Shown: positions 4,653 through 17,573 of the stretch, in pieces
Position numbering within the stretch: the stretch's first letter is position 1
How the letters are laid out: each line of letters begins with the position of its first letter
DNA from: Euzebya pacifica
Lineage (GTDB): Bacteria; Actinomycetota; Nitriliruptoria; Euzebyales; Euzebyaceae
Direction: 5' to 3'
DNA length: 64,000 nucleotides
NCBI RefSeq assembly: GCF_003344865.1
Contig: NZ_CP031165.1
Span: forward strand, 1,302,001 to 1,366,000
Notes under the pieces: generated by a model
Databases searched by the model: none
What the model saw: the letters and a program-made list of their open reading frames with translations, nothing else
Told to the model about the DNA's origin: nothing
Position numbers and translations under genes: made by a program

Positions 4653-5462
4653 TTATGTGATCGTGCGTGCGCAGTACTTCAGCTCCGCGACGTCCGCGGA
4701 CGTCCATCCCGCGTCCCGGACCATGTGCGGCGCCCAGATCTGACCACGCCTGCGCAGGTCCTCCCGCGCGACCGTCAGGTCGGGGTGGAGTGTCCAGACG
4801 TCCGCGTCTCGTGCACCGGAGCCGGCGAGGCTGCGCAAGAGGGCCGCGACATCGTCGGCATCCTGCGTCCGCTTCAGCGACTGCCAGGCGTGGACCTTGA
4901 GGGCCAGGGCGGCAACGGGGTGGGGCAAGAGCACGTCGTCGACAACGACCGTTGACCCATCTGTGAGCAGCGCGCGCACGGACGCCACGCGGGCCGGCAG
5001 CAGGAGCGCGGCCCCCAGGGCCGGGGTCACATCGACCACGAAGTCCCCCGCTGGGACGTTGCGACCGAATCGACCGTGATCGGCCGCACCGAGGAGGTCC
5101 ACGTTCGCCTCGACGTCAGCGGCCACCTTGCGCAACCGTGAGCCGTCGACCTTCTCGAACCCCTGTGACCGCATGGCGACAAGAAGCGGCGCTTCGCGTA
5201 GCTGGGCAACGTCAACACCGAGGTCGGCGTCGGCGGAATACCGCTGGTCCGGCTGTTGCGGCGCAAGGAGCCGCACCGTGAGGAGCGTCATCAGCCCGCC
5301 CACGAGCCTCCACCGCGTGCCCAACGCGGCGTGCGCGGCCGCTGTCATGCCCTCCAGGGCGACGGCCGCACCGTCGAAGGCCCGACTGGGTGACTGCAGC
5401 AGCACCGGCGCACCGGCACCGTGTCCGTCGCCGCTCACCGTTGGACCGCCATGGTGGTCCAT
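4653..5462 (-). CDS. AbiEii-like nucleotidyltransferase toxin
   Basis: 269 residues. The nucleotidyltransferase fold is recognised by WRLVGGLMTLL followed by RYSADADLGVD, which carries the D-x-D metal ligands, and by the helical block HPVAALALKVHAW...DADDVAALL, which corresponds to the K-x-x-A and R/K-D-xx-D region of AbiEii/DUF1814 proteins. AbiEii toxins block growth by adding nucleotides to tRNA or other targets. The family call is from motifs; toxicity is inferred. The start is the ATG at 5462 (MDHHGG). The frame runs further upstream but there reads across the excisionase gene in another frame and is not coding. Confidence 0.7.
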   Translation of the reverse strand: MDHHGGPTVSGDGHGAGAPVLLQSPSRAFDGAAVALEGMTAAAHAALGTRWRLVGGLMTLLTVRLLAPQQPDQRYSADADLGVDVAQLREAPLLVAMRSQGFEKVDGSRLRKVAADVEANVDLLGAADHGRFGRNVPAGDFVVDVTPALGAALLLPARVASVRALLTDGSTVVVDDVLLPHPVAALALKVHAWQSLKRTQDADDVAALLRSLAGSGARDADVWTLHPDLTVAREDLRRRGQIWAPHMVRDAGWTSADVAELKYCARTIT

Positions 5463-5505
5463 TCTCGCTGACCGGTGCCGTGGACGGCTGATGGTCCGCC
5501 GGCGC

Positions 5506-5706
5506 TCACCGCCGCAGCCAGGGCGTCTGGGCGTCGACCCGGTTGGTGTCGACGTACGCGTCCAACGCCGAGGGCTCGAATCTGACGTAGTGCCCGACCT
5601 TGATGAACGGGATCGTCCGCTGGGCAACCGCCCGGCGGATCCACCGGACGGAGACGCCAAGTCGGTCCGCGGCCTGGTCGACGTCGATGAGCGCTTCGGT
5701 CGGCAT
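5506..5706 (-). CDS. Excisionase-like MerR-type HTH protein
   Basis: A 66-residue single-domain DNA-binding protein. LIDVDQAADRLGVSVRWIRRAV is a classic helix-turn-helix 17/excisionase motif, followed by the wing KVGHYVRFEPSALDAYV. Such proteins bend DNA at att sites for excision or act as local regulators. The ATG at 5706 follows AAGGGAG at good spacing on the minus strand. It leads the minus-strand run with the AbiE-like pair, 43 bp before the toxin gene, so excision control and the toxin pair may share a transcript. Confidence 0.85.
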   Translation of the reverse strand: MPTEALIDVDQAADRLGVSVRWIRRAVAQRTIPFIKVGHYVRFEPSALDAYVDTNRVDAQTPWLRR

Positions 5707-5940
5707 GGCAGGTCTCCCTTCGGCGACGCGGCCGACCGGACCGTCCCGGCTGCACGTGGACACCACGTCGGACGGTTCGACGGCCCTTCAAGGGGTTCTG
5801 TGTCAAAGACCCGGCAAAGGATTCTGGACGGCGGTTTCCCGCCACGCCCCCTGACGGACCACCACACCTCTTGCAACTCGGTGAGTTGGGGAGGGCCTGC
5901 GCACCTCCATGGTGATGAGACGAACCTGGGCGGCACAGCC
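5707..5940. other. Intergenic region, candidate oriT / divergent promoters
   Basis: This 234-bp stretch separates the leftward excisionase run from the rightward relaxase. MobF relaxases usually nick just upstream of their own gene. It holds a perfect inverted repeat CAACTC-GGT-GAGTTG (5874-5888) and a smaller GGCGG/CCCGCC repeat around 5830. No known nic sequence is recognised, so oriT is a positional inference. Divergent promoters for both flanking genes must also lie here. Confidence 0.4.
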
Positions 5941-8900
5941 ATGACGGTGTCGATGCGGGCGATGTCGGCCGGTGATGGCTACCGCTACCTGATCGGCTCG
6001 GTCATCGTCGGCGACGGGCCGAGGGATCGGTCGTTGCCGTTGGTGGCGTACTACGCCCAGTCGGGGACGCCGGCGGGCCGCTGGCTGGGTTCCGGTCTCT
6101 CCGCCGTCGGACTTGCCGAGGGAGCGGAGGTCACCGAGGACCACCTCGCGCTGCTGCTGGGTGCGGGCCGGCACCCGGTCAACGGTGGGAAGCTCGGCCA
6201 CGCCTATCCCCGGTACACGACCGTCGCGGAGCGTGTCGCGGCCCGCCTGCGGCAACTCCCGGCCGGAGTGGCCCGGGGAACCGCGGACCGGATCACTGCG
6301 GAGGAAGCCGCCCGGCCCACCCGTCGTGCCGTGGCCGGCTATGACCTGACCTTCTCGGTGCCCAAGTCGGTGTCCGCGTGGTGGGCGCTCGCTGACGACG
6401 CGACGCGCAGGGGGATCGTCGAGGTCCACCACGCGGCCGTCCGTGACGTGCTGGCGTTGATGGAACGCGAGGTGGCGGCCACCCGTGCCGGTGCGAAGGG
6501 CCCCCACGGGGGCGTGCTGCAGCTGGACGTGGACGGGCTGATGGCCGCGGCGTTCGACCATTGGGATTCCCGTGCCGGGGATCCGCAGCTGCACACCCAC
6601 GTGGTGGTCTCCAACAAGGTGCGAACCAGCAGCGACGGGCGGTGGCGGGCGCTGGACGGACGGCCGCTGCACGCAGCGTTGGTGGCGCTGTCGGAGCACT
6701 ACAACGCGTTGCTCGCCGACGGGCTCACCGGCCGGTTCGGAGTGGATTGGGAGCAGCGGCAGCGGGGCCGGGACCGCACCCCGGCATGGGAGATCGCGAC
6801 CGTCCCGCAGTCGCTCGTCGAGGCGTTCTCCCAGCGATCCCGCCGGGTGGACGAGGCAACTGACCGGCTGGTCGACGCGCACCGCACGCAACATGGAACC
6901 ACGCCAGGCAGGCAGACCGTCATCCGGTTGCGGCAACAAGCCACGTTGGCGACACGCCCAGCCAAGCAACAACACTCGTTGGCCGCGCTGACCCGCGCAT
7001 GGAGTGCCCGGGCCCGCGAGGTGCTCGGCTTCGACGCTGCTTGGCTCAGCGTGGCGCCACGCAACGGGGAGCAGTCCCGGGCGTCTGCGGGCCCGATGGA
7101 TCCGCGGGCGATTCACGGGTGTGCGTTGGTCGTGCTCGACGTGGTGTCCGAGCGGCGGGCGACGTGGACCCGATGGAACCTCGTGGCCGAGGCGACGCGG
7201 CAGACCATGCACCTGCGCTACGGCAGCACCGCCGAGCGGGAGGAGGCAGTTGCCGCGATCGTTGCGTCGGCGCAACGCCAGTCGTTGCCCATCACGCCGC
7301 CCGACCTGGCTGCTGTCCCTGCGGACCTGCAGCGCGCGGACGGCAGCTCGCGGCTGCGCCCCAGGCACGCCACCCGCTACACCTCCCGGCACCTTCTGGA
7401 CGCCGAGGACCGCCTCGTTCAACGCAGCCGATCACGGCGCACCGGGTTGCAGATCCCTCCCGCCGAGTCGGGCGCGGTTGCGGCCGTGGCGGCCGGCTTG
7501 TCTGCGGATCAACATGCCGCGGTCGATCAGATCGCCACCTCTGGCCTGCAGGTGGACCTGCTCGTCGGGCCGGCCGGCACCGGCAAGACCCGCACCCTGG
7601 CAATCCTCCGCGCGCTCTGGGAACAGCATCACGGCCCGGGCTCCGTGGTCGGGCTCGCCCCCTCGGCTGCTGCTGCGGCAGTGTTGGGCGAGGAGCTGCG
7701 CATCCCCACCGACAACACTGCCAAGTGGCTGCACGACCACACCCGCAACGGGCGGCGGCTCGACTCCGGTCAGCTGCTGATCATCGACGAGGCATCCCTG
7801 GCCTCCACCCGTGCCCTCGACCTGCTGACCGGCCACGCCCAGGCCGTCGGGGCCAAGGTGTTGATGGTCGGCGACCCCCAGCAGCTCGGCCCGGTCGGCG
7901 CGGGTGGTGTGCTCGGCCTGCTCGCCGGGAGCCGGGCCGACCACCCACGCCTTGAGCAGGTGCACCGGTTCCACCACGAATGGGAGCGGGAGGCCTCGCT
8001 CCGGCTTCGGGACGGCAACCTCAACGCCGTCAGCGCCTACGCCGAACACGGACGACTGCACGAGTGGGCACCGGAGGAGGTGTTGCAGCGGGCACACGAT
8101 GCCTGGAGAGCCGACGTCGACGCCGGCATGGCGTCCATGCTGATCTCGCCCTCCCAGGACCAGGTGACTGCACTCAACCAGCTCGCCCGCAATCACCGCC
8201 AAGTGAGCGGAGAGGTCGAGGCCGGCGATGCCGCCGTCCTGCACGACGGGACGGCCGCAGGTGTCGGGGACTGGGTCATCACCAGACGCAACGCCCGACG
8301 CCACCGGACCAGCGCCGGCCGATGGATCCGCAACGGCGACCGCTGGACGGTCACCCAGTTGCACGTCGACGGCAGCCTCACGCTCACCGGCAACGACCCA
8401 CACGGCGGCGAGGTCACCCTGCCCGCCAGCTACGTCGCCGCCCACGTCGACCTCGGCTACGCGATCACCACCCACCGGGCCCAGGGCGCCACCGTCGACA
8501 CGGCGCACTGCATCATCGGGCCTTCGTCGACGCGGGAGAGCCTGTACGTCGCGCTCACCCGAGGCCGCCAGGCCAACCACGCCTGGATCGCCGACGGCCG
8601 CGACGGTTCATCGGTCCTCGCCGAGGTCCTCCGACGCACAGGTCAGACTCGATCGGCAACCGAGTCCCTTGCGCGGGAGCAGGACCGCTGGACGAGCACA
8701 GCGCAGCTCATCGCCGAGTACGAAACCATCGCCGCCTCTGCCGGCCCGACCCCGAGTGCCGAGACTGCACGCGCCCTGGCCGAGCGGCGACAGCTGCTCC
8801 ATCAGCAGGGCGACCAGCTGCTGCGCGCCGCCATCGCGGAACGGCAGCCCTGGCTTCTCCGGATCGGCAAACCACCCGTCGACCGCGGCCGCCGCCAGCA

Positions 8901-9111
8901 ATGGCTGACCCACGCGCGCACCATCGCCCTCCATCGAGATCGCCACGAGATCACGAGCCCCGAACCACTCGGACATGGGCCAAGGGAATCAGTCCCCGGA
9001 GCGGTGAAGGCACGCCAGGCGGCACGCGCACTGCAGGACCTTCGGCGGCAGGGCACACCAAGCACCCACCGTCCCCCGGCGCGGGAATCTTCCCGTGGGC
9101 TCGCGTGGTGA
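5941..9111 (+). CDS. MobF-family relaxase-helicase (TraI/TrwC type)
   Basis: 1056 residues. The relaxase domain (~1-330) has tandem tyrosines Tyr37-Tyr38 (VAYYAQ), one expected to attack the nic site, and the HUH histidines in DHWDSRAGDPQLHTHVVV (His207, His218, His220). The helicase half has Walker A VGPAGTGKT (~542-550), Walker B LLIIDEAS, a GDPQQLGPVGAGG motif III and the late motif YAITTHRAQGATVD. A basic ~200-residue tail follows. The protein would nick one strand of the excised circle, attach covalently and unwind the DNA for conjugation. The ATG at 5941 is chosen because family similarity starts there; its ribosome site is weak. No coupling protein or mating-channel gene accompanies it, hence mobilizable rather than self-transmissible. 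Confidence 0.93.
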   Translation: MTVSMRAMSAGDGYRYLIGSVIVGDGPRDRSLPLVAYYAQSGTPAGRWLGSGLSAVGLAEGAEVTEDHLALLLGAGRHPVNGGKLGHAYPRYTTVAERVAARLRQLPAGVARGTADRITAEEAARPTRRAVAGYDLTFSVPKSVSAWWALADDATRRGIVEVHHAAVRDVLALMEREVAATRAGAKGPHGGVLQLDVDGLMAAAFDHWDSRAGDPQLHTHVVVSNKVRTSSDGRWRALDGRPLHAALVALSEHYNALLADGLTGRFGVDWEQRQRGRDRTPAWEIATVPQSLVEAFSQRSRRVDEATDRLVDAHRTQHGTTPGRQTVIRLRQQATLATRPAKQQHSLAALTRAWSARAREVLGFDAAWLSVAPRNGEQSRASAGPMDPRAIHGCALVVLDVVSERRATWTRWNLVAEATRQTMHLRYGSTAEREEAVAAIVASAQRQSLPITPPDLAAVPADLQRADGSSRLRPRHATRYTSRHLLDAEDRLVQRSRSRRTGLQIPPAESGAVAAVAAGLSADQHAAVDQIATSGLQVDLLVGPAGTGKTRTLAILRALWEQHHGPGSVVGLAPSAAAAAVLGEELRIPTDNTAKWLHDHTRNGRRLDSGQLLIIDEASLASTRALDLLTGHAQAVGAKVLMVGDPQQLGPVGAGGVLGLLAGSRADHPRLEQVHRFHHEWEREASLRLRDGNLNAVSAYAEHGRLHEWAPEEVLQRAHDAWRADVDAGMASMLISPSQDQVTALNQLARNHRQVSGEVEAGDAAVLHDGTAAGVGDWVITRRNARRHRTSAGRWIRNGDRWTVTQLHVDGSLTLTGNDPHGGEVTLPASYVAAHVDLGYAITTHRAQGATVDTAHCIIGPSSTRESLYVALTRGRQANHAWIADGRDGSSVLAEVLRRTGQTRSATESLAREQDRWTSTAQLIAEYETIAASAGPTPSAETARALAERRQLLHQQGDQLLRAAIAERQPWLLRIGKPPVDRGRRQQWLTHARTIALHRDRHEITSPEPLGHGPRESVPGAVKARQAARALQDLRRQGTPSTHRPPARESSRGLAW

Positions 9112-9139
9112 TGGGCCGCAGCACGTCCGCTCGATAGTC

Positions 9140-9225
9140 CCCGATATGGGTGGGCAGCGGTCCCGGCAAGCGGTGCCACCCACGCGCATAACGCCCCTCC
9201 GGTATCCGGGACATCGCATAGCAGC
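9140..9225 (-). repeat. Possible diverged, inverted copy of the border repeat
   Basis: On the minus strand CCCGGATACCGGA followed by GTTATGCGCG resembles the start of copy A (16437-16467), and GGGTGGCA/TGCCCACC arms can pair further on. The CCACGG end is missing. It lies just past the relaxase gene in a 200-bp stretch without a gene. Weak on its own; listed because CCCGGATACCG recurs at copies A and B. Confidence 0.3.
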
Positions 9226-9313
9226 GCCGGCAGTGCAGAGGTCTGCTACCAGAGGCCTGGGCGTTGGGGGCGGGAGCGCCCGATACCGCACGGTGACGCC
9301 ACGCACAAACGGC

Positions 9314-9742
9314 TCAGTCGAGTAGCAACTCGTTGAGAGCCAGGGCGCCCGTGCCAGGGGGTCGATGTCGGGGAAGTAGCGGGGTGTGATGTCGAACGCC
9401 TGCTGACGGTCGTCGATCCGAGGTGGTCCAGCAGTAGCCGGATGTCGTTCGTGTCGCGCTCGGTGCGAGACGCCATGACGTTCATGGCCAGCAGGTTGGT
9501 CCGGTGGTGTGAGCAGCGCCCTGAGGTTGGGGCGGTCCACCACGACCGTGGTGGGCGTTGCCAAGCCAGAGACGTAGGTGCTGGCCTTGTTGTTCAGCCA
9601 GCCCATCTGGATGTTCATCCGGCGCGCGATGGCGTGGGGCTGCCTCGATCACCGGATCGTCGGGCTGGAACAGTGCATCCACATACGAGTGGCGTCGTGA
9701 CCGTCGAAGGTCAAGTTCCAACGCCCGACGGCGACAGGGCAT
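9314..9742 (-). pseudogene. Frameshifted nucleotidyltransferase (DUF6036/AbiEii-like) remnant
   Basis: Pieces of one protein appear in order on the minus strand in alternating frames: LDLRRSRRHSYVDALFQPD (around 9720-9660), MGWLNNKASTYVSGL then VVVDRPNLRALLTP (9610-9500), ASRTERDTNDIRLLLDHL (9480-9425), QQAFDITPRYFP (9400-9365), and a final NELLLD then TGA at 9316-9314. This is the order seen in DUF6036-type nucleotidyltransferases: D-x-D strand, WLN, lower domain, R-x-x-D-x-x-D-I helix, C-terminal E-L-L. At least three frame changes are needed, so the gene is dead. It is a second, decayed relative of the intact pair at 3668-5462. Confidence 0.65.
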
Positions 9743-9858
9743 TCACCGTCGCAGCCCCCGACGCAAGCGCAGAATCCACAGCCGCGTCGGCTCAAACCGG
9801 AGGGCGGATGCTCCCTCTGACATCTCCCAGGCCGTCGTCGCTGCCGTCGCGTCGATGG

Positions 9859-11031
9859 TCAGTCGTCGCGCTTACGGCGTCGGTACTCTCGCTGTGCCTG
9901 CGCCCGGGCGCAGGCCCTCGAGCAGTACAGCACCCCCTTGGTGCGGTGCTGCCCGTACTCCGCCCGGCCAGACTGCCGGGCGAACCATGTCGCGCACGTC
10001 TCGTTCGCGCACCGCCTGGCCGGGACGCCAGCGGCGACCCAGTCGACTACCTGCAGCATCATCGCCTGCAGGATCCGGGCGATCGGCCGACCGAACGCGA
10101 GCCCGCCGCGCTCTGCCCCCGGCGGCGCAACCTCGATTCGCGGCGACATGACCGTCTCGACGTTCGTCAACCGCTGGATGCTGCGGATCAGCTCGATGGT
10201 CGTGGACGGGACGGAGAGCCCGTGTCCTTCCCAGAGCGCTGCCAGCTCATCGCGAGGCGGGAGGAGGAGCGCCGCGCGTGTGAGGTCTGTGTCGGGACGC
10301 AGGTGCAGCCACGACTGGACGACCGCCTGATACAGCCGAAAGTGCGCCTGCTGCTGGCCGAGCGCCGTGCCGTAGGCCACCCGCAAGTCGCGTTCCGCGG
10401 AGGCTCGGTAGGTCCCCTCGTAGGACTCCGGGGAATCGCCGAGTCGGTCCGGCTGCTCGTCGAACTCGATCTCGTGCTCGGTGAGGTCCGGTTCGTCGCC
10501 GGCGTACAGCTGCAGTTCCAGGGGATCCTCACTGGACGCGCGCGGCTCGATTACGGGCCGGACCTCCTCCGCATGGAGGTAGAGCCGCTGGGGAACTAGG
10601 GGGCCGTACCGGCTGCACCACCGCAGCACGCTGTTGAGGTCCTCGGCGTCCACCTCGAGGAACCCGCGGAAGACGAGTTCATGCGGCAACTCGACGAGCT
10701 CGACCTCTGAGGAGGAGAAGACCGCCGCGGGCGGCCAGTCGACGGCGGCGCCGATCCTGCGGAGCCCGTCAGCGACGTCGGGGTAGTCCTCGTACAGCGG
10801 CCGGGCGACGTAGACAAGGTCGAGGCTGCCGTGGGCACCATCGAGGATGTCGACGCGCTGGTAGTCGCCGATGTCGTCATCGAGTTCGACCCACCACTCC
10901 TCCTTGTCCGGCTCCTCCGGCCACTGGGTGTCGACGACGGCGAGCAGCCGCGGAGCCCCGACGAGCGTAGGAACCTCCACGGCCCCTGGCCAGGTAGTGA
11001 TACGAAATCGTGTCTGTTCGTCCCTCGACAT
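9859..11031 (-). CDS. CGNR-like zinc-finger protein, paralog 1
   Basis: 390 residues. The N-terminus (RFRITTWPGAVEVP) matches paralog 2 (RFRMTAWPAAVEPP), and both end in a Cys-rich basic finger: RRCANETCATWF, then GQHRTKGVLYCSRAC and an Arg-rich tail. Four cysteines in a C-x4-C ... C-x3-C pattern fit a CGNR-like zinc finger, usually DNA-binding at the C-terminus of actinobacterial regulators. The ~340-residue central part is acidic and unrecognised, so the full role is unknown. The ATG at 11031 has no ribosome site but lies 6 nt past a good -10, which indicates a leaderless mRNA. It follows paralog 2 on the same strand with its own promoter. Confidence 0.8.
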   Translation of the reverse strand: MSRDEQTRFRITTWPGAVEVPTLVGAPRLLAVVDTQWPEEPDKEEWWVELDDDIGDYQRVDILDGAHGSLDLVYVARPLYEDYPDVADGLRRIGAAVDWPPAAVFSSSEVELVELPHELVFRGFLEVDAEDLNSVLRWCSRYGPLVPQRLYLHAEEVRPVIEPRASSEDPLELQLYAGDEPDLTEHEIEFDEQPDRLGDSPESYEGTYRASAERDLRVAYGTALGQQQAHFRLYQAVVQSWLHLRPDTDLTRAALLLPPRDELAALWEGHGLSVPSTTIELIRSIQRLTNVETVMSPRIEVAPPGAERGGLAFGRPIARILQAMMLQVVDWVAAGVPARRCANETCATWFARQSGRAEYGQHRTKGVLYCSRACARAQAQREYRRRKRDD

Positions 11032-11037
11032 ACCCCC

Positions 11038-11066
11038 AGTATGCGTGGCACGGTATCAACAGTCAA
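11038..11066 (-). promoter_or_regulatory. Leaderless sigma70-type promoter of paralog 1
   Basis: Minus strand: -35 TTGACT (11066-11061), 17-nt spacer, -10 CATACT (11043-11038), then 6 nt to the ATG at 11031, so transcription should begin at or next to the start codon. The spacer shares ACCGTGCCACG with paralog 2's ACCGTGTCACG, more than promoter function requires, so it may hold a common operator. Confidence 0.6.
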
Positions 11067-11106
11067 CGTACAACGAGGAGGAGGGGCGGTGAAGGGTCGT
11101 AGCAGC

Positions 11107-12339
11107 TCAGGTGGCGTCGCGCTGACGTCGGCGCCACTCCCGCGACGCCTGATTTTGCGCGCATCGGGCAGAGCAGTAGAGGACTCCCCGCGTGCGGCGC
11201 TGGCCTTTCTCTGCGCGGCCGGTCTGGACCGAGAACAGCCGCCCACAGGTCTCGCTCGCACATCGCTTCACCGGGACCCCTGTCGCTGCCCATGTCACGG
11301 CCTGGAGCGCCATCACCGGCAGAGCGCTCAGCAGCGGTCGACCGTAGATGACCTCCCCGGCGTCGAGCTGCAGTCGCGGGGCGCCCGGGACGGTGTTGGT
11401 GTTGATCTCTTCCATGACAGCATGGGCCAGCTCGAAGCCGGTCGTCGCAGGCTCGAAGCCCCGTCGCCTCCAGATGGCGTGCAGGTCGTCGCGCGGCATG
11501 TCCGCCAGCGCCGCGGACTCGAGATCCGACGGCGTCCAGGACGCCAGGGTCTCGAATACGGCGGCGTAGTAGCGGATGGCGTGACGCTGGACGTCCAGAT
11601 CGTGCAACAGCATCCGCGGCCCGTAGCCCTCATGGTCGACGGGACTCACGTCTCCACTCGGACGAACCAGGTACCGGTAAAGGCTGTAGGAATTCGCGGA
11701 TGGCTGAACCTGCGGGCTTCCGAGCAGCGCCGAAGCCTGTCGCAGTTGATGGGAGCGATCTCCGGCTCGACGCTCGTGAAGGCGGCTGGCGATCTCCAGT
11801 GCGCTCAGACCCTCAGCGATGAGCGCGTCAGCCTCCTCCTCGGTCGCTACATCCCACAGGTCCCAGGGATCGGACGCAGCGTCCCAGCCGACCGGAGCGA
11901 CTGTGTAGAGATCGTCCCTTCCGTCTTCGCGGACCCACAGGGGGCCGTAGCGCATGAGGAAGTCCATCACCGCCGCGTCCGATGGTCGGTCAGGCAGGTC
12001 GACGAGCTCGAGGAACAACTCGGGGGGAGCTTCGACCTCCACGGGCGACGGCGTGAACAGCAGCGTCGCCGAGTCGGTGTAGGAAGCCGGCTCGTGACTG
12101 TCGACTTCGAGGACCAGTTCGTCGGGGTCGCTCTGCTGCCCCGCCGGTACGTAGACGTTCCGAAGGTCCTCGCCCTCCCCGTATGCCTCGTGGCGGACGA
12201 AGCTCGGGAGATCGAGTGGCTGGTCGGTGCCGGGTGCCTGGACGATGCCGATGAGTGGCGCGACCGCGATCTGCGCCGGCGGCTCGACAGCCGCCGGCCA
12301 TGCCGTCATACGAAACCGCAATACATCGTCTGTTGCCAT
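11107..12339 (-). CDS. CGNR-like zinc-finger protein, paralog 2
   Basis: 410 residues. It resembles paralog 1 at the start (LRFRMTAWPAAVEP), in the PxxFLMRYGPLWV-type middle block and at the finger (KRCASETCGRLFSVQTGRAE, then RTRGVLYCSARC and RREWRRRQ). The finger suggests DNA or RNA binding; nothing indicates catalysis. The ATG at 12339 is chosen because a -10 sits 6 nt upstream exactly as in paralog 1, again leaderless. An upstream GTG is possible but lies inside the promoter. It is divergent from the HNH-helicase at 12421, with 81 bp between. Confidence 0.8.
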   Translation of the reverse strand: MATDDVLRFRMTAWPAAVEPPAQIAVAPLIGIVQAPGTDQPLDLPSFVRHEAYGEGEDLRNVYVPAGQQSDPDELVLEVDSHEPASYTDSATLLFTPSPVEVEAPPELFLELVDLPDRPSDAAVMDFLMRYGPLWVREDGRDDLYTVAPVGWDAASDPWDLWDVATEEEADALIAEGLSALEIASRLHERRAGDRSHQLRQASALLGSPQVQPSANSYSLYRYLVRPSGDVSPVDHEGYGPRMLLHDLDVQRHAIRYYAAVFETLASWTPSDLESAALADMPRDDLHAIWRRRGFEPATTGFELAHAVMEEINTNTVPGAPRLQLDAGEVIYGRPLLSALPVMALQAVTWAATGVPVKRCASETCGRLFSVQTGRAEKGQRRTRGVLYCSARCAQNQASREWRRRQRDAT

Positions 12340-12345
12340 GACCGC

Positions 12346-12374
12346 ATTGTGCGTGACACGGTGAGCTCCGTCAA
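12346..12374 (-). promoter_or_regulatory. Leaderless sigma70-type promoter of paralog 2
   Basis: Minus strand: -35 TTGACG (12374-12369), 17-nt spacer, -10 CACAAT (12351-12346), 6 nt to the ATG at 12339. The geometry is identical to that upstream of paralog 1, and the spacer shares the ACCGTG-C/T-CACG core. Binding here could also affect the divergent helicase. Confidence 0.6.
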
Positions 12375-12420
12375 ACGTATGACGCAACCAGCGACGTACC
12401 GGCGCACCGAGGAGCACGCC

Positions 12421-14307
12421 ATGGCCCGCCACATGACCGCCACCGACAAGCAGACGCTCACGCTGTTCACCGCCGGCGCCTGCGCCGGGTGCGGCGCTGA
12501 CCTCCCGGACGGCTGGCACGCCGACCACCGCACCCCGCACGCAGCTGGCGGCCTCACGTCAGCCCTCAACGGCGACCCGCTCTGCCCGCCATGCAACCTG
12601 ACGAAAGGAACGACGATGCCCCACGGCACCACGACCATGACCCTGCGAGACTGGCAGCGCCAGGCCCTCGACCTCTATCGCGACCCCACCCCGCCCTCGG
12701 ACTTCCTGGCCGTCGCGACGCCTGGCGCCGGCAAGACCCGCTGGGCCGCCACGGTCCTCGAGGGGCTCCTCACGACCGGTGCCGCCCAGCAGATCGTCGT
12801 CGTCGTCCCCTCCACCCGTCTGCGGGAGCAGTGGGCGAACAGCCTCTACGCCTCCCACCGCATCGCCCTGAACCCCTCCTGGGCCAACCACAACGGCACC
12901 TGGACCAGCGACTTCCGTGGCGTCGTCGTCACCTACGCCCAGGTGGCCTCCAACCCCGACCTGTTCGCCATGCACTGTTCAAGGACCGACACCGTCGCCG
13001 TGTTCGACGAGATCCACCACTGCGGCGAGCGGCGCAGCTGGGGCGACGCCCTCCGGACCGCCTTCGCTCCCGCCCGGCACCGCATCGCGCTGTCCGGCAC
13101 ACCGTTCCGTAGCGACACAAACCCCATCCCGTTCATCCGCTACACCGACGAGTCCTCAGACCCCGACTTCACGTACGGGTACGACCAGGCCGTGGCCGAC
13201 GGCGTGTGCCGGCGCGTCTTCTTTACCACCGTCGACGGCGAGTTCGAGTGGAGCTCCCGCCCCGGGGAGACCATCTCGTGCGACTTCGACACGCCGCTGT
13301 GGCACAACGAGCTGGGCCGACGCCTCCGCACCGCACTCATGCCCGACGGCGACTACCTCCGTCGCCTCATCAGCGAAGCCCACAACCGCCTCATGAGCCT
13401 CCGCCGCGACCAGCCCGATGCCGGCGGCCTCATCCTCGCGATCGACCAGGACCACGCCCACGCCATCGCGCAGATCCTCCGCGACGAGCACGCCGTCGCC
13501 GCCGTCGTCGCGGTGTCCGACGACCCGACGTCCCAGCAGCACATCGACCGGTTCGCGACGTCCGACGCTCCGTGGATCGTCGCGGTCCGCATGGTCTCCG
13601 AGGGCGTCGACATCCCGCGGCTCCGCGTCGCCGTCCACGCCACGAACACGACCGCCGAGCTGTTCTTCCGCCAGGCCGTCGGCCGGATCGTGCGGCACAC
13701 CGACACCGAACATGAGGACGCCTACTACTTCATCCCCGCCGATCCGCGGCTGCGCGATAACGCCGCCCGGATCGAGGAGGAGCGCGACCACGACCTCGAC
13801 GAGCCCGACGACGACCCCGACGCGCCCACCGACCCACGCGACGAGGAGGACCCACCGCCGACCACGTTCGTCCCGATCGCCGCCCGCGCGACCGTCAAGG
13901 GGATGATCGCCTCCGGGGAGGTCTTCGACGGCGCCGCCCTCGCTGAGGCCGAGCATTTCCTCGCCGCCAACCCCGAGTTCGCCAAGCTGAACGCAGCGGA
14001 GGTCATCCGGCTCAAGCGGGCCCTCGCGTCCACCCAGCCGACGCTGGCCACGAGCACCGCCCCCCAGCGGGACGTTCTTGAAGAGCCTCCGCACCGGCGC
14101 CGCGAGACGCTGAAGAAGCGCAACAGCGAAATCGCCCGCAGGATCGCGTACCGCCACCAGACCGAGTTCCGCGACGTCAACGCCGCGCTCAACCGGGCCG
14201 CCGGGATCCGCCGCGTCGATGACGCCACGATCGAGCAGCTCGAGGAGCGACTGGCAACCGCGACCCGCTGGCTCGCCGGCGGGGGACCAGGCCTGATGCC
14301 GCTATAG
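12421..14307 (+). CDS. HNH nuclease - SF2 helicase fusion
   Basis: 628 residues. The N-terminal HNH domain (~20-65) has Cys21-x2-Cys24, HADH (33-36), GGLTSALN and Cys55-x2-Cys58 followed by NLTKG, all expected zinc and catalytic positions. An SF2 helicase follows: Walker A TPGAGKT (100-106), DEIH (196-199), SGTPFRS (motif III), EGVDIPRL (motif V) and QAVGRIVRHT (motif VI). A very acidic linker (EPDDDPDAP...) and a helical C-terminal tail end the protein. HNH plus an ATP-driven motor suggests nucleic-acid processing, as in restriction-like defence or element replication; the function is inferred. The ATG at 12421 has GAGGAG at 12409-12414. The gene is divergent from zinc-finger paralog 2. Confidence 0.85.
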   Translation: MARHMTATDKQTLTLFTAGACAGCGADLPDGWHADHRTPHAAGGLTSALNGDPLCPPCNLTKGTTMPHGTTTMTLRDWQRQALDLYRDPTPPSDFLAVATPGAGKTRWAATVLEGLLTTGAAQQIVVVVPSTRLREQWANSLYASHRIALNPSWANHNGTWTSDFRGVVVTYAQVASNPDLFAMHCSRTDTVAVFDEIHHCGERRSWGDALRTAFAPARHRIALSGTPFRSDTNPIPFIRYTDESSDPDFTYGYDQAVADGVCRRVFFTTVDGEFEWSSRPGETISCDFDTPLWHNELGRRLRTALMPDGDYLRRLISEAHNRLMSLRRDQPDAGGLILAIDQDHAHAIAQILRDEHAVAAVVAVSDDPTSQQHIDRFATSDAPWIVAVRMVSEGVDIPRLRVAVHATNTTAELFFRQAVGRIVRHTDTEHEDAYYFIPADPRLRDNAARIEEERDHDLDEPDDDPDAPTDPRDEEDPPPTTFVPIAARATVKGMIASGEVFDGAALAEAEHFLAANPEFAKLNAAEVIRLKRALASTQPTLATSTAPQRDVLEEPPHRRRETLKKRNSEIARRIAYRHQTEFRDVNAALNRAAGIRRVDDATIEQLEERLATATRWLAGGGPGLMPL

Positions 14308-14329
14308 CGCCGGCATCGCGACCCGACCG

Positions 14330-14640
14330 CCCGGTCTGCTCGCGCCGCCACTGGAGCTGCCAGCTCTGGCAGCTGGTCGCCTTCCAAGAACTCGTCGGCG
14401 TTGACGGTGACCGACGTCGGTCCCTCGATGATCCCGTTGCCGATGATCGAGGTGACCTCGCCGGACGCGTCGCGGTTACGGGCCCAGGAGCAGGCGACGG
14501 GGTCGAGCCCCTGGGGGCCCGCAGTACGGTAGGTCCGGGGGCAATGTCGACGCCGACCTGCTCAAGAACCACACGTCAGGGCGGTCTCCATTGAGCGCGT
14601 CGTTGAAGAGGCCGGCAATGTCGGGGCCATGGCGCTGTTC
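14330..14640 (-). pseudogene. Remnant of a secreted-protein tail domain, frameshifted
   Basis: Minus strand: DIAGLFNDALNGDRP, then VGVDIAPG, then TYRTAGPQGLDPVACSWARN and VTSIIGNGIIEGPTSVTVNA follow one another in different frames. The VGxDIxPGTYR ... CxWAR ... IIxN ... GPTSVTI pattern is a known small extracellular domain at the ends of actinobacterial and Bacillota surface proteins. At least one frame change falls inside the PGTYR motif and another before it, and no start or signal sequence survives. The C-terminal part runs toward the 3' end of the helicase gene. Confidence 0.55.
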
Positions 14641-14789
14641 TCTTGGACCTCTAAGCCGAGGTGCTGGCCGCGCCGACCAGCCTTCTGGTAGCGGCTCATG
14701 CGGGAGGCCTGCGATCAGGCCAGAGCTGCATCCTTCCCTGCGGCCGCGTAGCTCGGCCGACCTGGGCCGTGACCCACTACCCTGAGCGC

Positions 14790-15083
14790 ATGGGCTGGGA
14801 GGGGCTGACGACGGCGAGGCTCCGCGCTGTCAGGTTCCTCTCACAGCTGCTTACGCCGACGAGGACGCCAACGGCGGCAGGCGATCGACTCGACACGGCC
14901 TATTGGGTTCACTCGGTGCCATTGCTCCTGGCATTGCTCGTGGGTGGGTTCTTGCAGGAGGTGGTCCTTCCCGCCGTGCTATCAGCGACGGCGCCCCGCG
15001 TGGCCATCTCCTGGGCAGCTGCCCTGGGGGTGCTGACGCTATCCATTTGCGGAAGACCTCGGGAGAGGACGACTGACCCGTAG
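14790..15083 (+). CDS. Small two-helix membrane protein, unknown
   Basis: 97 residues from the ATG at 14790 (MGWEGLTTARL). Two hydrophobic stretches, SVPLLLALLVGGFLQEVVLP and VAISWAAALGVLTLSICG, predict a hairpin in the membrane after a basic N-terminus. There is no ribosome site; a TACCCT 6 nt before the ATG could be a leaderless -10, without a clear -35. It is convergent with the minus-strand gene ending at 15089. No family recognised; an accidental frame is possible. Confidence 0.4.
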   Translation: MGWEGLTTARLRAVRFLSQLLTPTRTPTAAGDRLDTAYWVHSVPLLLALLVGGFLQEVVLPAVLSATAPRVAISWAAALGVLTLSICGRPRERTTDP

Positions 15084-15088
15084 GTCGG

Positions 15089-15985
15089 CTACGGACGTTG
15101 CTGCGCGACTGACGGGTCAGCCCCTGCCTTGGCCGCGTGGTAGCTGCGCCTGCTCGAGTAGGCGTTGGCGCACGACGGGGAACAGTGGTCGGCGTCCTTG
15201 CGGCCACGTGTGGTCCTGGTCGCGCGTCCGGACTTAATGGAGAACCGGCCGCCGCAGTTGAGGCAGTCCCGGACCCGGACGTCCCTGGCGTGCAGCGAGG
15301 CGATCTGGCGTGCCGCGGCGGTCCCGCAGGCCGGCGGCTCGTCCGGGACGGGACTGGGGTCGTCGTGGAGGACGAACACGGGGAGCGGTGCGGTGCCGCC
15401 GCACATCTCGTTGATGAGCGCGACGAAGGTCCGCAGCGATCGGCGGCCCGTCTCGGGGGTCGGGCTGCCCGGATCGACCCCGACTCCGTGCCAGGCCGCG
15501 CCTGTGGCGTCGGCGAAGGCCTCGAAGTGGTCGTCGGTGGCGGGGTGGCCGAGCCGACCAACGTGGTAGGCGAGGTCGGCGAGGGTCTTGAGGAGCGCGA
15601 TGCCCCAGCCGGCGGCCCGGACCGGCATCCGCCGCTCCGTGCTCGACGGGTGCTCGAAGTGCATGCCGAGGAGATGGAGTCGTGCCGCGACCCGGAGGGC
15701 GTCGTGGTGCGTCCTGCCGTCATCGAAGGGGCCTGACGGAGCCAACCTGACCGAAGCGGGGAGGTGGACGGGTCCCCAGGCGGTGACCCAGTCGACGACC
15801 TGCGCGGCGTCGTCGGGGTCGGTGTCGCGGACGGACCGGACGAAGAAGTCGGACTCGACCGGCACCGACAGGGACCGGTGGTCGAGCGCCACGAGCGCCG
15901 GCGGGGAGGCCTCGGGTCTGTGCAGGACATGGGGGACCCGGACCCGGTCGGGTGGGTCGAACGTCGCGCGTGTCCGCAACTCCAT
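15089..15985 (-). CDS. CGNR-like zinc-finger protein, paralog 3
   Basis: 298 residues, shorter than and distant from the proteins at 9859 and 11107, but with the same plan: a 'DPDDAAQVVDWVTAWGPV' block parallel to the 'FLMRYGPLWV' block, a helical middle and a C-terminal finger. The finger is CLNCGGRFSIKSGRATR, then ADHCSPSC, then a basic SSRRSYHAAK tail, with C-x2-C rather than C-x4-C. The ATG at 15985 (MELRTRATF) has GGGAGGAG in front, unlike the leaderless pair. Upstream lies a perfect 11-bp inverted repeat, a candidate operator shared with the divergent small genes at 16103. Function unknown beyond probable nucleic-acid binding. Confidence 0.75.
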   Translation of the reverse strand: MELRTRATFDPPDRVRVPHVLHRPEASPPALVALDHRSLSVPVESDFFVRSVRDTDPDDAAQVVDWVTAWGPVHLPASVRLAPSGPFDDGRTHHDALRVAARLHLLGMHFEHPSSTERRMPVRAAGWGIALLKTLADLAYHVGRLGHPATDDHFEAFADATGAAWHGVGVDPGSPTPETGRRSLRTFVALINEMCGGTAPLPVFVLHDDPSPVPDEPPACGTAAARQIASLHARDVRVRDCLNCGGRFSIKSGRATRTTRGRKDADHCSPSCANAYSSRRSYHAAKAGADPSVAQQRP

Positions 15986-16003
15986 GACGATCTCCTCCCT
16001 ATT

Positions 16004-16044
16004 CGCACCTGCCACGAAAAGCTACATGGTTCTTGGCAGGTGCG
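16004..16044. promoter_or_regulatory. Perfect 11-bp inverted repeat, candidate operator
   Basis: CGCACCTGCCA (16004-16014) and TGGCAGGTGCG (16034-16044) are exact reverse complements separated by 19 nt. They lie between paralog 3 (minus) and the 80-residue gene at 16103 (plus). Arm length and spacing fit a site for a dimeric regulator over divergent promoters; the adjacent zinc-finger protein is an obvious candidate ligand. A transcript hairpin is the alternative. Confidence 0.5.
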
Positions 16045-16102
16045 CCGGTGAGGATGTTCCTGGAGCTCGGGACAGCCCCGGCCCAAAGAGAAGGAGAGAC
16101 CG

Positions 16103-16345
16103 ATGGATGTGCTCAACGAAGCCGCAGCGCGGGGCGTCACGGGACCCGAGCCGGACGATGCAGCCCGCTGGACCGCGCAGGGCCTCGCCGATCTCGCGGT
16201 CGTCGTGGCCGACGGCGACGCTGATGTCGTGCGCAGGTGGGCGCGACGGGTCGGGTCAGCCGGCGGCGCACTGGTGCTCCTCGCCGTCACGATGGACCGT
16301 GTCGCTGACCGTGTCGCCGTCGAGGTCGTCGGGGCGGCACGGTGA
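16103..16345 (+). CDS. Small protein of unknown function (80 aa)
   Basis: Starts at the ATG at 16103 with GGAGAG in front (AAGAGAAGGAGAGACCG). The product is Ala/Val/Asp-rich and probably helical, with a mildly hydrophobic segment GGALVLLAVTMDRVADRV. No family recognised. Its stop overlaps the GTG of the next mini-gene, so the two are translationally coupled. Divergent from zinc-finger paralog 3 across the operator-like palindrome. Confidence 0.6.
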   Translation: MDVLNEAAARGVTGPEPDDAARWTAQGLADLAVVVADGDADVVRRWARRVGSAGGALVLLAVTMDRVADRVAVEVVGAAR

Positions 16346-16425
16346 ACGACCGCTTCTGGACCGAGCTGGCAATCGCGTCCGCGCTCGCAGTAGTCGTCGG
16401 CTTGGCGCTGACCGCCTGGGGCTGA
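16342..16425 (+). CDS. 27-residue single-span membrane peptide
   Basis: The GTG at 16342 overlaps the previous stop as GTGA. It encodes MNDRFWTELAIASALAVVVG plus LALTAWG, a short charged head followed by one hydrophobic helix long enough to span the membrane. The stop-start overlap and clean single-helix composition support a real gene. Peptides of this kind can be type I toxins, small regulators or membrane anchors; nothing here decides. Confidence 0.5.
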   Translation: MNDRFWTELAIASALAVVVGLALTAWG

Positions 16426-16436
16426 GCCGCTCAGTG

Positions 16437-16502
16437 CCCCGGATACCGGATGCGCTGCTATGGGCGGTGGTGAGCTTCCGCGAAGCCGTCCATAGCCACG
16501 GC
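16437..16502 (+). repeat. Copy A of the palindromic module-border repeat
   Basis: A CCCCGGATACCGGA lead is followed by arm GCTATGGGCGG (16457-16467), an 18-nt loop containing GAGCTTCC, arm CCGTCCATAGC (16486-16496; 10 of 11 pairs) and CACGG, so CCACGG begins at the last C of the right arm. The loop GAGCTTCC recurs in copy C. It marks the left border of the 16878-18664 gene pair. Confidence 0.65.
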
Positions 16503-16877
16503 TTCGTGGGGGCGCTCTCGAGTCGGGCGGCGATCCGCCGGTGACCCTGACCGGTGGCGGCAGCGTCAGGGCCTGGCCGATGACCGCCATCGCCCAGGCC
16601 CGGTGGGGCACGACGCTGGCGGGCAGCAGCACGTGGGTGCGGCCACGGCCGCCGCAGCGAGCACGTCGGCCGCAAGACCTGGGCGCTGTCGCGTAGCGGA
16701 CGGCGTCGTACCAGTCCCCACGGCCGCAGACTTCCCTTGGTACTCGCCAGGGCAGGTGAGCTGGCCGTCGCGCAGCGCACGATCGGCCCGGTCGCGGTGG
16801 GCGGTTCCGTCGCAGCGGTCCAAGCGACGCCGCTAAGGTTCCAGGCTTTCGATGCGCACGTCGGCTAAGGTTGCCGA
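16503..16877. other. Gap without recognisable gene
   Basis: About 375 bp between border repeat A and the gene at 16878. Short frames run through it on both strands but none has a ribosome site, a recognisable domain or a consistent start. It may hold the promoter of the following pair, close to 16860, and otherwise looks like eroded sequence. Confidence 0.5.
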
Positions 16878-17573
16878 ATGCACGACCTGCCTGTTCCGAT
16901 TCCTGCCGCGTTGACAGAAGCGATCGTTCGGGGTGCCCGCCGCGGCCATGAACTCGCGGCCCGGACCCATAACGACGACGAGTTGTGGGACGAGATGACG
17001 TTCGGGGTGAACCGTCACCGATTGTCGGTCAACTGGATCATGCAGGAAGCCGCCGGCCTCGCCGGCGTGACACCTCAATCGGGTATGGGCGGTAGCAAGC
17101 ACCTGTGCTGCAACGGGTTGCGTTTCAGCTTCCACAACGGCGGCATGAACGCCAAGTGGGACCCCGACACCTACGACTTCGATCGCGGAGCCCGCGGTGC
17201 GATGGCGGACAGCAACGGGCAGCTGTCGATGCTGGCCGACCTCGCCGGGGACGCCGCGATGGTCGACATGGCGCGGGTTCGGGAGTTGGACGTTGTCTTG
17301 GTCGGCAACCAGATGGCCGGCTGTGAGGTTGTCTACCTCGGCGCCCCCGTCGACAGCGACATCGGACGCCGTTGGGGCTGGATCACCATGCTCTGGACCA
17401 TCGGTGACGAGGGGCTCGCCGGTTGGGGCGAGACTGAGGGCGGCGCTCCGCCTCGAGGGCCAGTCGACCCGTCGGGCGGGTATGACGGGTTCCGAGCGAT
17501 GCCCGTGGATGACGTCCCGCCACTCACGGTCAAGCCGACGGTGCGGCCTGCGGAGGGGTCCGGGGCGTCGTGA
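16878..17573 (+). CDS. Unknown protein coupled to XRE/ImmA-IrrE gene
   Basis: 231 residues, ATG at 16878 (MHDLPVPIPAALTEAI). Features: a helical N-terminus (RGARRGHELAARTHNDDELWDEMTFG), a central GGSKHLCCNGLRFSFHNG segment, a beta-like stretch (ELDVVLVGNQMAGCEVVYLG), then WGWITMLWTIG and a Pro/Gly-rich tail. I do not recognise the family. The stop overlaps the next start (GTGA at 17570-17573), so the two proteins are made together. ImmA/IrrE-HTH proteins often cleave or regulate a partner encoded beside them, so this may be the controlled partner or a toxin; that is inference from position only. Confidence 0.75.
   Translation: MHDLPVPIPAALTEAIVRGARRGHELAARTHNDDELWDEMTFGVNRHRLSVNWIMQEAAGLAGVTPQSGMGGSKHLCCNGLRFSFHNGGMNAKWDPDTYDFDRGARGAMADSNGQLSMLADLAGDAAMVDMARVRELDVVLVGNQMAGCEVVYLGAPVDSDIGRRWGWITMLWTIGDEGLAGWGETEGGAPPRGPVDPSGGYDGFRAMPVDDVPPLTVKPTVRPAEGSGAS

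Follow-up and report, generated by a model that had tools for sequence, protein, structure and literature searches.

Two tandem genes in the window, by which we mean the whole 64-kb stretch of DNA analysed here, each carry two copies of a 30-bp inverted repeat, one of them (O1) spanning the -35 box and spacer of an apparently leaderless promoter and the other (O2) lying within the first codons of the gene. We put the probability at roughly 75% that each of the encoded zinc-finger proteins represses its own leaderless promoter through these bracketing operators, that is, by autoregulation in cis. The sites themselves, their conservation and their position are well supported by sequence comparison. 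All coordinates below are positions in the window, and minus and plus offsets are relative to the start codon. The genes concerned, together with a distant paralog, are as follows.

9859-11031, minus strand: gene 1, 390 aa, ATG at 11031, with a C-terminal CX4C...CX3C zinc finger (CANETC...YCSRAC)
11107-12339, minus strand: gene 2, a 410-aa paralog of gene 1, ATG at 12339
15089-15985, minus strand: third finger paralog, distant, without O1/O2 (O1 -1.6 bits, O2 4.2 bits), used as a control row

The proteins encoded by genes 1 and 2 are 33% identical, and gene 2 has the same finger as gene 1 and an N-terminal motif related to the RFRITTWPG of gene 1. The promoter elements of the two genes, -35 and -10 boxes alike, were located with both a sigma-70 scan and a composite pattern.

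11061-11066, minus strand: -35 box of gene 1, TTGACT (sigma-70 scan and composite pattern)
11038-11043, minus strand: -10 box of gene 1, CATACT, 6 nt to ATG, leaderless geometry
12369-12374, minus strand: -35 box of gene 2, TTGACG (sigma-70 scan and composite pattern)
12346-12351, minus strand: -10 box of gene 2, CACAAT, 6 nt to ATG

The sequence-only reading had proposed that these promoters share their geometry and a core within the spacer, and both proposals hold: TTGAC(T/G), 17 nt, NANNNT, 6 nt and ATG follow one another at both genes, and the 17-nt spacers (GTTGATACCGTGCCACG in gene 1, GAGCTCACCGTGTCACG in gene 2) have ACCGTG-Y-CACGCA in common. A generic sigma-70 scan of positions 9000-17000 on both strands returns exactly these two promoters (shuffle mean, 0.5), and the composite promoter pattern has two matches in the window and none in 100 shuffles. 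When a slightly looser pattern, allowing up to 3 mismatches, is run over the 6.37-Mb genome, genes 1 and 2 are again the two matches, and no third composite promoter was found. Moreover, among 248 coding-like ORFs (1135 start candidates) in a 400-kb background sample of the same genome, drawn as 20 stretches of 20 kb, none has an equally strong promoter with 17-nt spacing and exactly 6 nt to the start codon.

The common operator suggested by the earlier reading is strongly supported and can be extended. Its shared core stands, being the right half of O1; the longer inverted repeat and the second copy in the first codons had been overlooked. The complete 30-bp repeat, with half-site consensus GTAGTACGAA, runs from -43 to -14 as O1 and from +6 to +35 (codons 2 to 12) as O2, and the two copies are present at most of the family genes examined. 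The four sites in the window are listed here with their scores.

11045-11074, minus strand: O1 of gene 1, GTTGTACGTT-GACTGTTGAT-ACCGTGCCAC, -43 to -14, 18.3 bits, second in the window
10997-11026, minus strand: O2 of gene 1, GAGGGACGAA-CAGACACGAT-TTCGTATCAC, +6 to +35, 23.2 bits, first in the window
12353-12383, minus strand: O1 of gene 2, GTCATACGTT-TGACGGAGCTC-ACCGTGTCAC, with an 11-nt centre, 17.4 bits, third in the window
12305-12334, minus strand: O2 of gene 2, AACAGACGAT-GTATTGCGGT-TTCGTATGAC, +6 to +35, 14.6 bits, fourth in the window

The half-site matrix was trained on 11 upstream O1 sites outside this genus; the idea of the half-site arose from a listing of upstream sequences that included this genus, the sites of which were kept out of the matrix. 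Over the window, the top four matches are exactly the O1 and O2 sites of genes 1 and 2, with the fifth at 8.4 bits, and the maximum in the 400-kb sample is 12.7 bits. The highest score among 60 dinucleotide shuffles of the window is 18.3 bits (mean maximum 11.9, with 7 of the 60 at 14.6 bits or more), so the scores of single sites are only moderate, and the strength of the result lies in four of four sites at two gene starts. With a joint score defined as the smaller of the two site scores, genes 1 and 2 have 18.3 and 14.6 bits, and the best of 869 start candidates in the 400-kb sample has 3.0 bits. Given that an inverted repeat is located in the first codons, O2 might act in the mRNA, as a hairpin or an element of leaderless translation, and not as DNA. 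We consider this very improbable, since a matrix trained on O1 alone detects O2, and O1, with the same motif, would fall outside the transcript, on its upstream side, if transcription is leaderless.

Relatives of genes 1 and 2 are present in 9 of 396 genomes sampled across the phylum, and 27 named relatives, 17 of them from Streptomyces, were found with alignment A3. Searching genome contigs with gene 2 alone gave no relative, and the phage records searched gave no family match; one relative was found in viral contigs and 17 plasmid records have a family match, three of which were examined in detail. In most relatives, the upstream listing shows a 30-bp inverted repeat before the gene and a second across the first codons, as exemplified by the operator GTAGTACGAA-GTGCCACTGT-TTCGTATTAC of locus L050. 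We tabulated 35 genes, among which the third paralog serves as a control and L070-L072 and L075 are four loci fetched after training. Left out of this table were L056, L063, L064 and L065, in which no in-frame N-terminal motif was found and no site scores above 11.6 bits, L015, the 5' part of which is not resolved, and L010, L012 and L014, which are the same sequences as L041, L040 and L059. Both O1 and O2 reach at least 14 bits in 27 of the 35 genes, 11 of these 27 having supplied training O1 sites; genes with both sites include those of Streptomyces, Micromonospora, Salinispora, Nitriliruptoria and a viral contig, and all four of the loci fetched after training. Eight rows fail the 14-bit test at one or both sites (O1/O2 bits): gene A of G003, a genome of the same genus (6.2/24.4), L011 (5.8/8.5), L013 (3.7/12.5, start uncertain), L016 (4.4/2.4), L040 (14.5/8.4), L057 (12.1/15.0), L059 (12.1/3.4) and the third paralog (-1.6/4.2). 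Three of these, L040, L057 and L059, are distant members that have a C-terminal extension and whose half-sites have diverged (GTGATAAT, GTGATAGG), which may reflect joint change of protein and operator.

The placement of the sites is regular. O2 begins at +6 in all 23 genes with leaderless geometry (19 from Streptomycetaceae and 4 from this genus), and the position of O1 relative to the promoter is constant within each genus. The left half of O2 lies upstream of the start codon wholly in L041 and mostly in L054, L055, L058 and L075, with the spacing still kept. For 19 of the 20 Streptomycetaceae genes tabulated, O1 and O2 are offset by 59-60 bp; the offset is 48-49 bp in this genus, 57-58 bp in L055 and L058, and 66 bp in L054 and L075. 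A helical-phase rule for this offset is only a possibility, with the difference between 48 and 59-60 bp fitting one added turn and the values of 57-58 and 66 bp fitting less well. Across genera, the start codon, the promoter and the operator appear to limit each other's placement.

The codons TTT-CGT, which are rare, are invariant where O2 overlaps them, a synonymous constraint among the dereplicated members, whose genes otherwise favour TTC and CGC. Under its right half, TTT is used in 15 of 15 dereplicated members and CGT in all 12 that have arginine; the whole-gene pool, O2 positions included, contains 35 TTT versus 121 TTC codons and 55 CGT among 492 arginine codons. The G003 copy of gene 1, which is outside the dereplicated representatives, uses TTC. 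Over 198 columns, excess codon identity is greatest at R10, with a glycine column in the finger region second (91 of 105 pairs identical, 36.7 expected) and F9 third, so that O2 is not the sole place with such an excess. The codons also bear on whether the shared promoter is merely a functionless relic of gene duplication or conversion, a reading favoured by the tandem arrangement of the two paralogs. That explanation seems to us scarcely credible: the proteins are 33% identical yet 12 of 13 positions of the promoter core are identical between the two genes, homologs in other families and classes are preceded by a site of this type, and the O2 codons are invariant.

Genome scans were carried out with two models, R1, which uses sequence only and was built without this genus, and R2, a pairing model built partly from sites of this genus, including O2 of gene 2, with 150 candidates scored per genome. 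Among these candidates, O2 of gene 1 is the best match in the whole genome with both models. With R1, only O2 (E 0.14) and O1 (E 2.2) of gene 1 appear at E ≤ 10 in the genome of the window, and both sites of gene 2 are missed. R2 gives E values of 2.7e-4 for O1 of gene 1, 0.0027 for O2 of gene 2 and 1.9 for O1 of gene 2, all but the last being flattered because the model was partly built from sites of this genus; its weak extra matches are at C1:2676566 (E 1.8, unrelated) and C1:5395545 (E 4.7). In six further genomes, all 14 R1 rows at E ≤ 1 among the candidates scored fall on O1 or O2 of a family gene, and only the two O2 sites reach this value in G003. No further clear operator was found in the seven genomes among the 150 candidates scored in each, and the idea of a genome-wide regulon was dropped for this reason. 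An extension of the operator to canonical CGNR genes was likewise ruled out for the loci scanned (30 of 50 PF11706 matches in the seven genomes), none of which has the operator, the best score being 10.2 bits.

Starts of the leaderless type are common in this genome, and the strong form with a TTGAC-like -35 box at this spacing is rare. In the 400-kb sample, TANNNT is found 7, 12, 11 and 9 times at 6, 7, 8 and 9 nt before ATG or GTG, with counts of 0-6 at the 36 remaining distances. The leaderless -10 geometry is seen in four of four genes of this genus, and in 19 of the 20 tabulated Streptomycetaceae genes the distance from the end of a TANNNT box to ATG is either 6 nt, as in 7 rows, or 7 nt, as in 12; the exception, L054, has a GTG start and an O2 that reaches upstream. 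Leaderless genes make up about 20% in Actinobacteria, according to PMC3160421, and their -10 box is placed as in the genes studied here, with about 6-7 nt between it and the start codon; the genes studied here have a bracketing operator pair in addition. On the basis of this geometry in both groups, the TANNNT peak and the literature, we infer that transcription is leaderless, as had been suggested from the two genes alone. In two Streptomyces plasmid homologs, L070 (3706-3777) and L071 (1754-1864), the annotated starts are 24 and 37 codons downstream of a leaderless-type ATG marked by O1 and O2, and the reading frame is open from the earlier ATG, suggesting earlier start codons for these annotated genes. 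The L071 copy is annotated as 'transposase', and the annotated and predicted starts agree in L072.

The region around genes 1 and 2 contains two further genes of interest.

12421-14307, plus strand: HNH-nuclease and ResIII/DEAD helicase gene, divergent, starting 37 bp from O1 of gene 2
5128-9111: ORF with TrwC relaxase and AAA_30 helicase domains

With its relaxase and helicase ORF, the region has the appearance of an integrated element that is conjugative or mobilizable. Neighbours of the family gene vary: an HNH-helicase gene here, a gene with a Helicase-associated domain (HA helicase) in Streptomyces, and an AAA or HSP70 gene in L055 and L058. In the three Streptomyces plasmid copies examined, of 17 records, the family gene is about 2-6 kb from the end of a linear plasmid, and in two of them an HA helicase gene comes next, which may be related to ttrA, described in PMC8743542 as a putative helicase gene near streptomycete replicon ends. 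The divergent partner at L039:1751-2257 (MADWAARKSIGDQHEQRV...) has no Pfam match, is nuclease-like by eye only and resembles, also by eye, the upstream divergent genes of other Streptomyces loci. Taken together, the TrwC relaxase in the window, the closeness of the plasmid copies examined to linear-plasmid ends and the integrases beside distant members might indicate that the paired sites serve recombination, transfer or replication of a mobile element, with the promoter overlap being secondary. This is improbable in our judgement, given that O2 is at +6 in every one of the 23 genes with leaderless geometry, that O1 is fixed to the promoter within each genus, and that each of the tandem paralogs has its own pair of sites.

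Neither gene 1 nor gene 2 has a Pfam or NCBIfam match (no Pfam family at E ≤ 1). Across 26 family members, Pfam zf-CGNR (PF11706) matches four at E ≤ 1, the best value of 0.14 falling short of the curated cut-off, and HTH_23 matches three; the 50 matches to PF11706 found in seven genomes include none of the loci studied here. The family has the cysteine pattern CX4C...CX3C (C341/C346/C370/C374 in gene 1, invariant columns in alignment A4) that is reported, in PMC2954205, for the treble-clef finger of Jann_2411 (Cys147/152/168/172), but CARA in gene 1 and CAQN in gene 2 replace the CGNR motif (C-G/Q-N-R at the last cysteine). We examined AlphaFold models of gene 1 (mean pLDDT 61) and of a Micromonospora member (mean pLDDT 81). 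When Foldseek candidates are aligned with VIA-align, the best for both models is 3h0n, the structure of Jann_2411, with alignments that include the finger and cover most of the protein (Z 6.8 over 151 of 184 residues and Z 5.8 over 147 of 184; next candidates 3.0 and 2.8), values below 8 being weak. Foldseek itself gives nothing significant, with 3h0n at rank 3 (E 0.71) for one model and outside the 50 matches listed for the other, and a sequence search of solved structures gave nothing convincing. Jann_2411 is an ABATE-CGNR protein (PF07336 and PF11706), described in PMC2954205 as a dimer with a finger that is likely to bind DNA. Family proteins are about 275-450 aa long, compared to about 180 aa for ABATE-CGNR proteins, and one Streptomyces homolog carries the annotation 'CGNR zinc finger domain-containing protein'. 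As the cysteine spacing agrees, the CGNR motif does not, and the structural match is weak, genes 1 and 2 probably encode remote relatives of ABATE-CGNR proteins and not members of zf-CGNR.

The earlier reading had tentatively named one of the zinc-finger proteins as the binder. We infer, and prefer as the plausible reading, that the zinc-finger protein itself binds O1 and O2, because its gene is the only common factor seen across differing hosts and neighbours, and also because the two models match, albeit weakly, a protein predicted to bind DNA. Binding by another protein, whether a host regulator or a mobile-element partner such as an HTH_17 excisionase-like protein, is an unlikely alternative for which the genomic neighbours offer candidates: L041 has HTH_17 and integrase genes next to the family gene, and L054 and L057 have integrase genes there. 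Neighbours change, however, while the sites stay, and the hosts differ widely; in addition, a host regulator usually has sites elsewhere, and none is clear in the seven genomes with 150 candidates scored in each. With the zinc-finger protein as the binder, autoregulation in cis is suggested because the same motif is present at O1 and O2 and is almost exclusive to this gene, and the overlap of O1 with the -35 box and spacer would make repression the likely sign. Each operator consists of two 10-bp half-sites with centres 20 bp, or two helical turns, apart. A dimer bound at O1 would stand directly in the way of RNA polymerase, and another bound at O2 would provide a further block downstream, possibly in a cooperative manner, with an O1-O2 offset about one helical turn longer in Streptomycetaceae than in this genus. 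Since the operator is common to both paralogs, they probably regulate each other as well, and O1 of gene 2, which also falls in the gap before the divergent HNH-helicase gene, may control that gene too.

Paired operators around a regulator's own promoter are a general feature of one kind of autorepressor, e.g. phage repressors, and the likeness here is that two inverted-repeat operator copies bracket the promoter. In contrast to such systems, the downstream copy here sits within the first codons of a gene that is apparently leaderless, and the synonymous codons that accompany it are invariant across genera, which makes this a clear example of an operator embedded in the beginning of such a gene. 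The available part of PMC2954205 states no DNA target for ABATE-CGNR-like proteins, and, among the literature matches listed, no title concerns either such a target or this operator in searches with operator strings. It is a tentative and somewhat doubtful proposal that these sites might be the first DNA target of the ABATE-CGNR superfamily, belonging to mobile-element regulators with a bracketed leaderless promoter, in which a dual-coded O2 and a self- and cross-regulated switch of two paralogs and four sites would also control the divergent nuclease-helicase gene, and hence whether conjugative elements and the ends of linear plasmids are in a transfer or a defence state. With a 30-bp operator pair defined this precisely, the statement 'likely binds DNA' becomes checkable by a simple gel shift.

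The same block, an HNH-helicase region followed by two tandem finger genes, is present in G003, and the family is absent from the other two genomes of this genus that were searched. In G003, the counterpart of gene 1 shows 86% identity to it and retains ACCGTGCCACG together with the 17-nt spacer and the distance of 6 nt to the start codon, and the helicase part is 93% identical to that of the divergent gene in the window. The G003 gene in the gene-2 slot is 32% identical to gene 2 and has a poorer -35 box (TTGCGC), with the geometry of 17 nt and 6 nt before a GTG. Comparison of this slot (L008:4688-6028 versus window positions 11107-12339), with its 32% identity between neighbours at 86% and 93%, makes it look as if gene 2 has been replaced or is diversifying between the two genomes.
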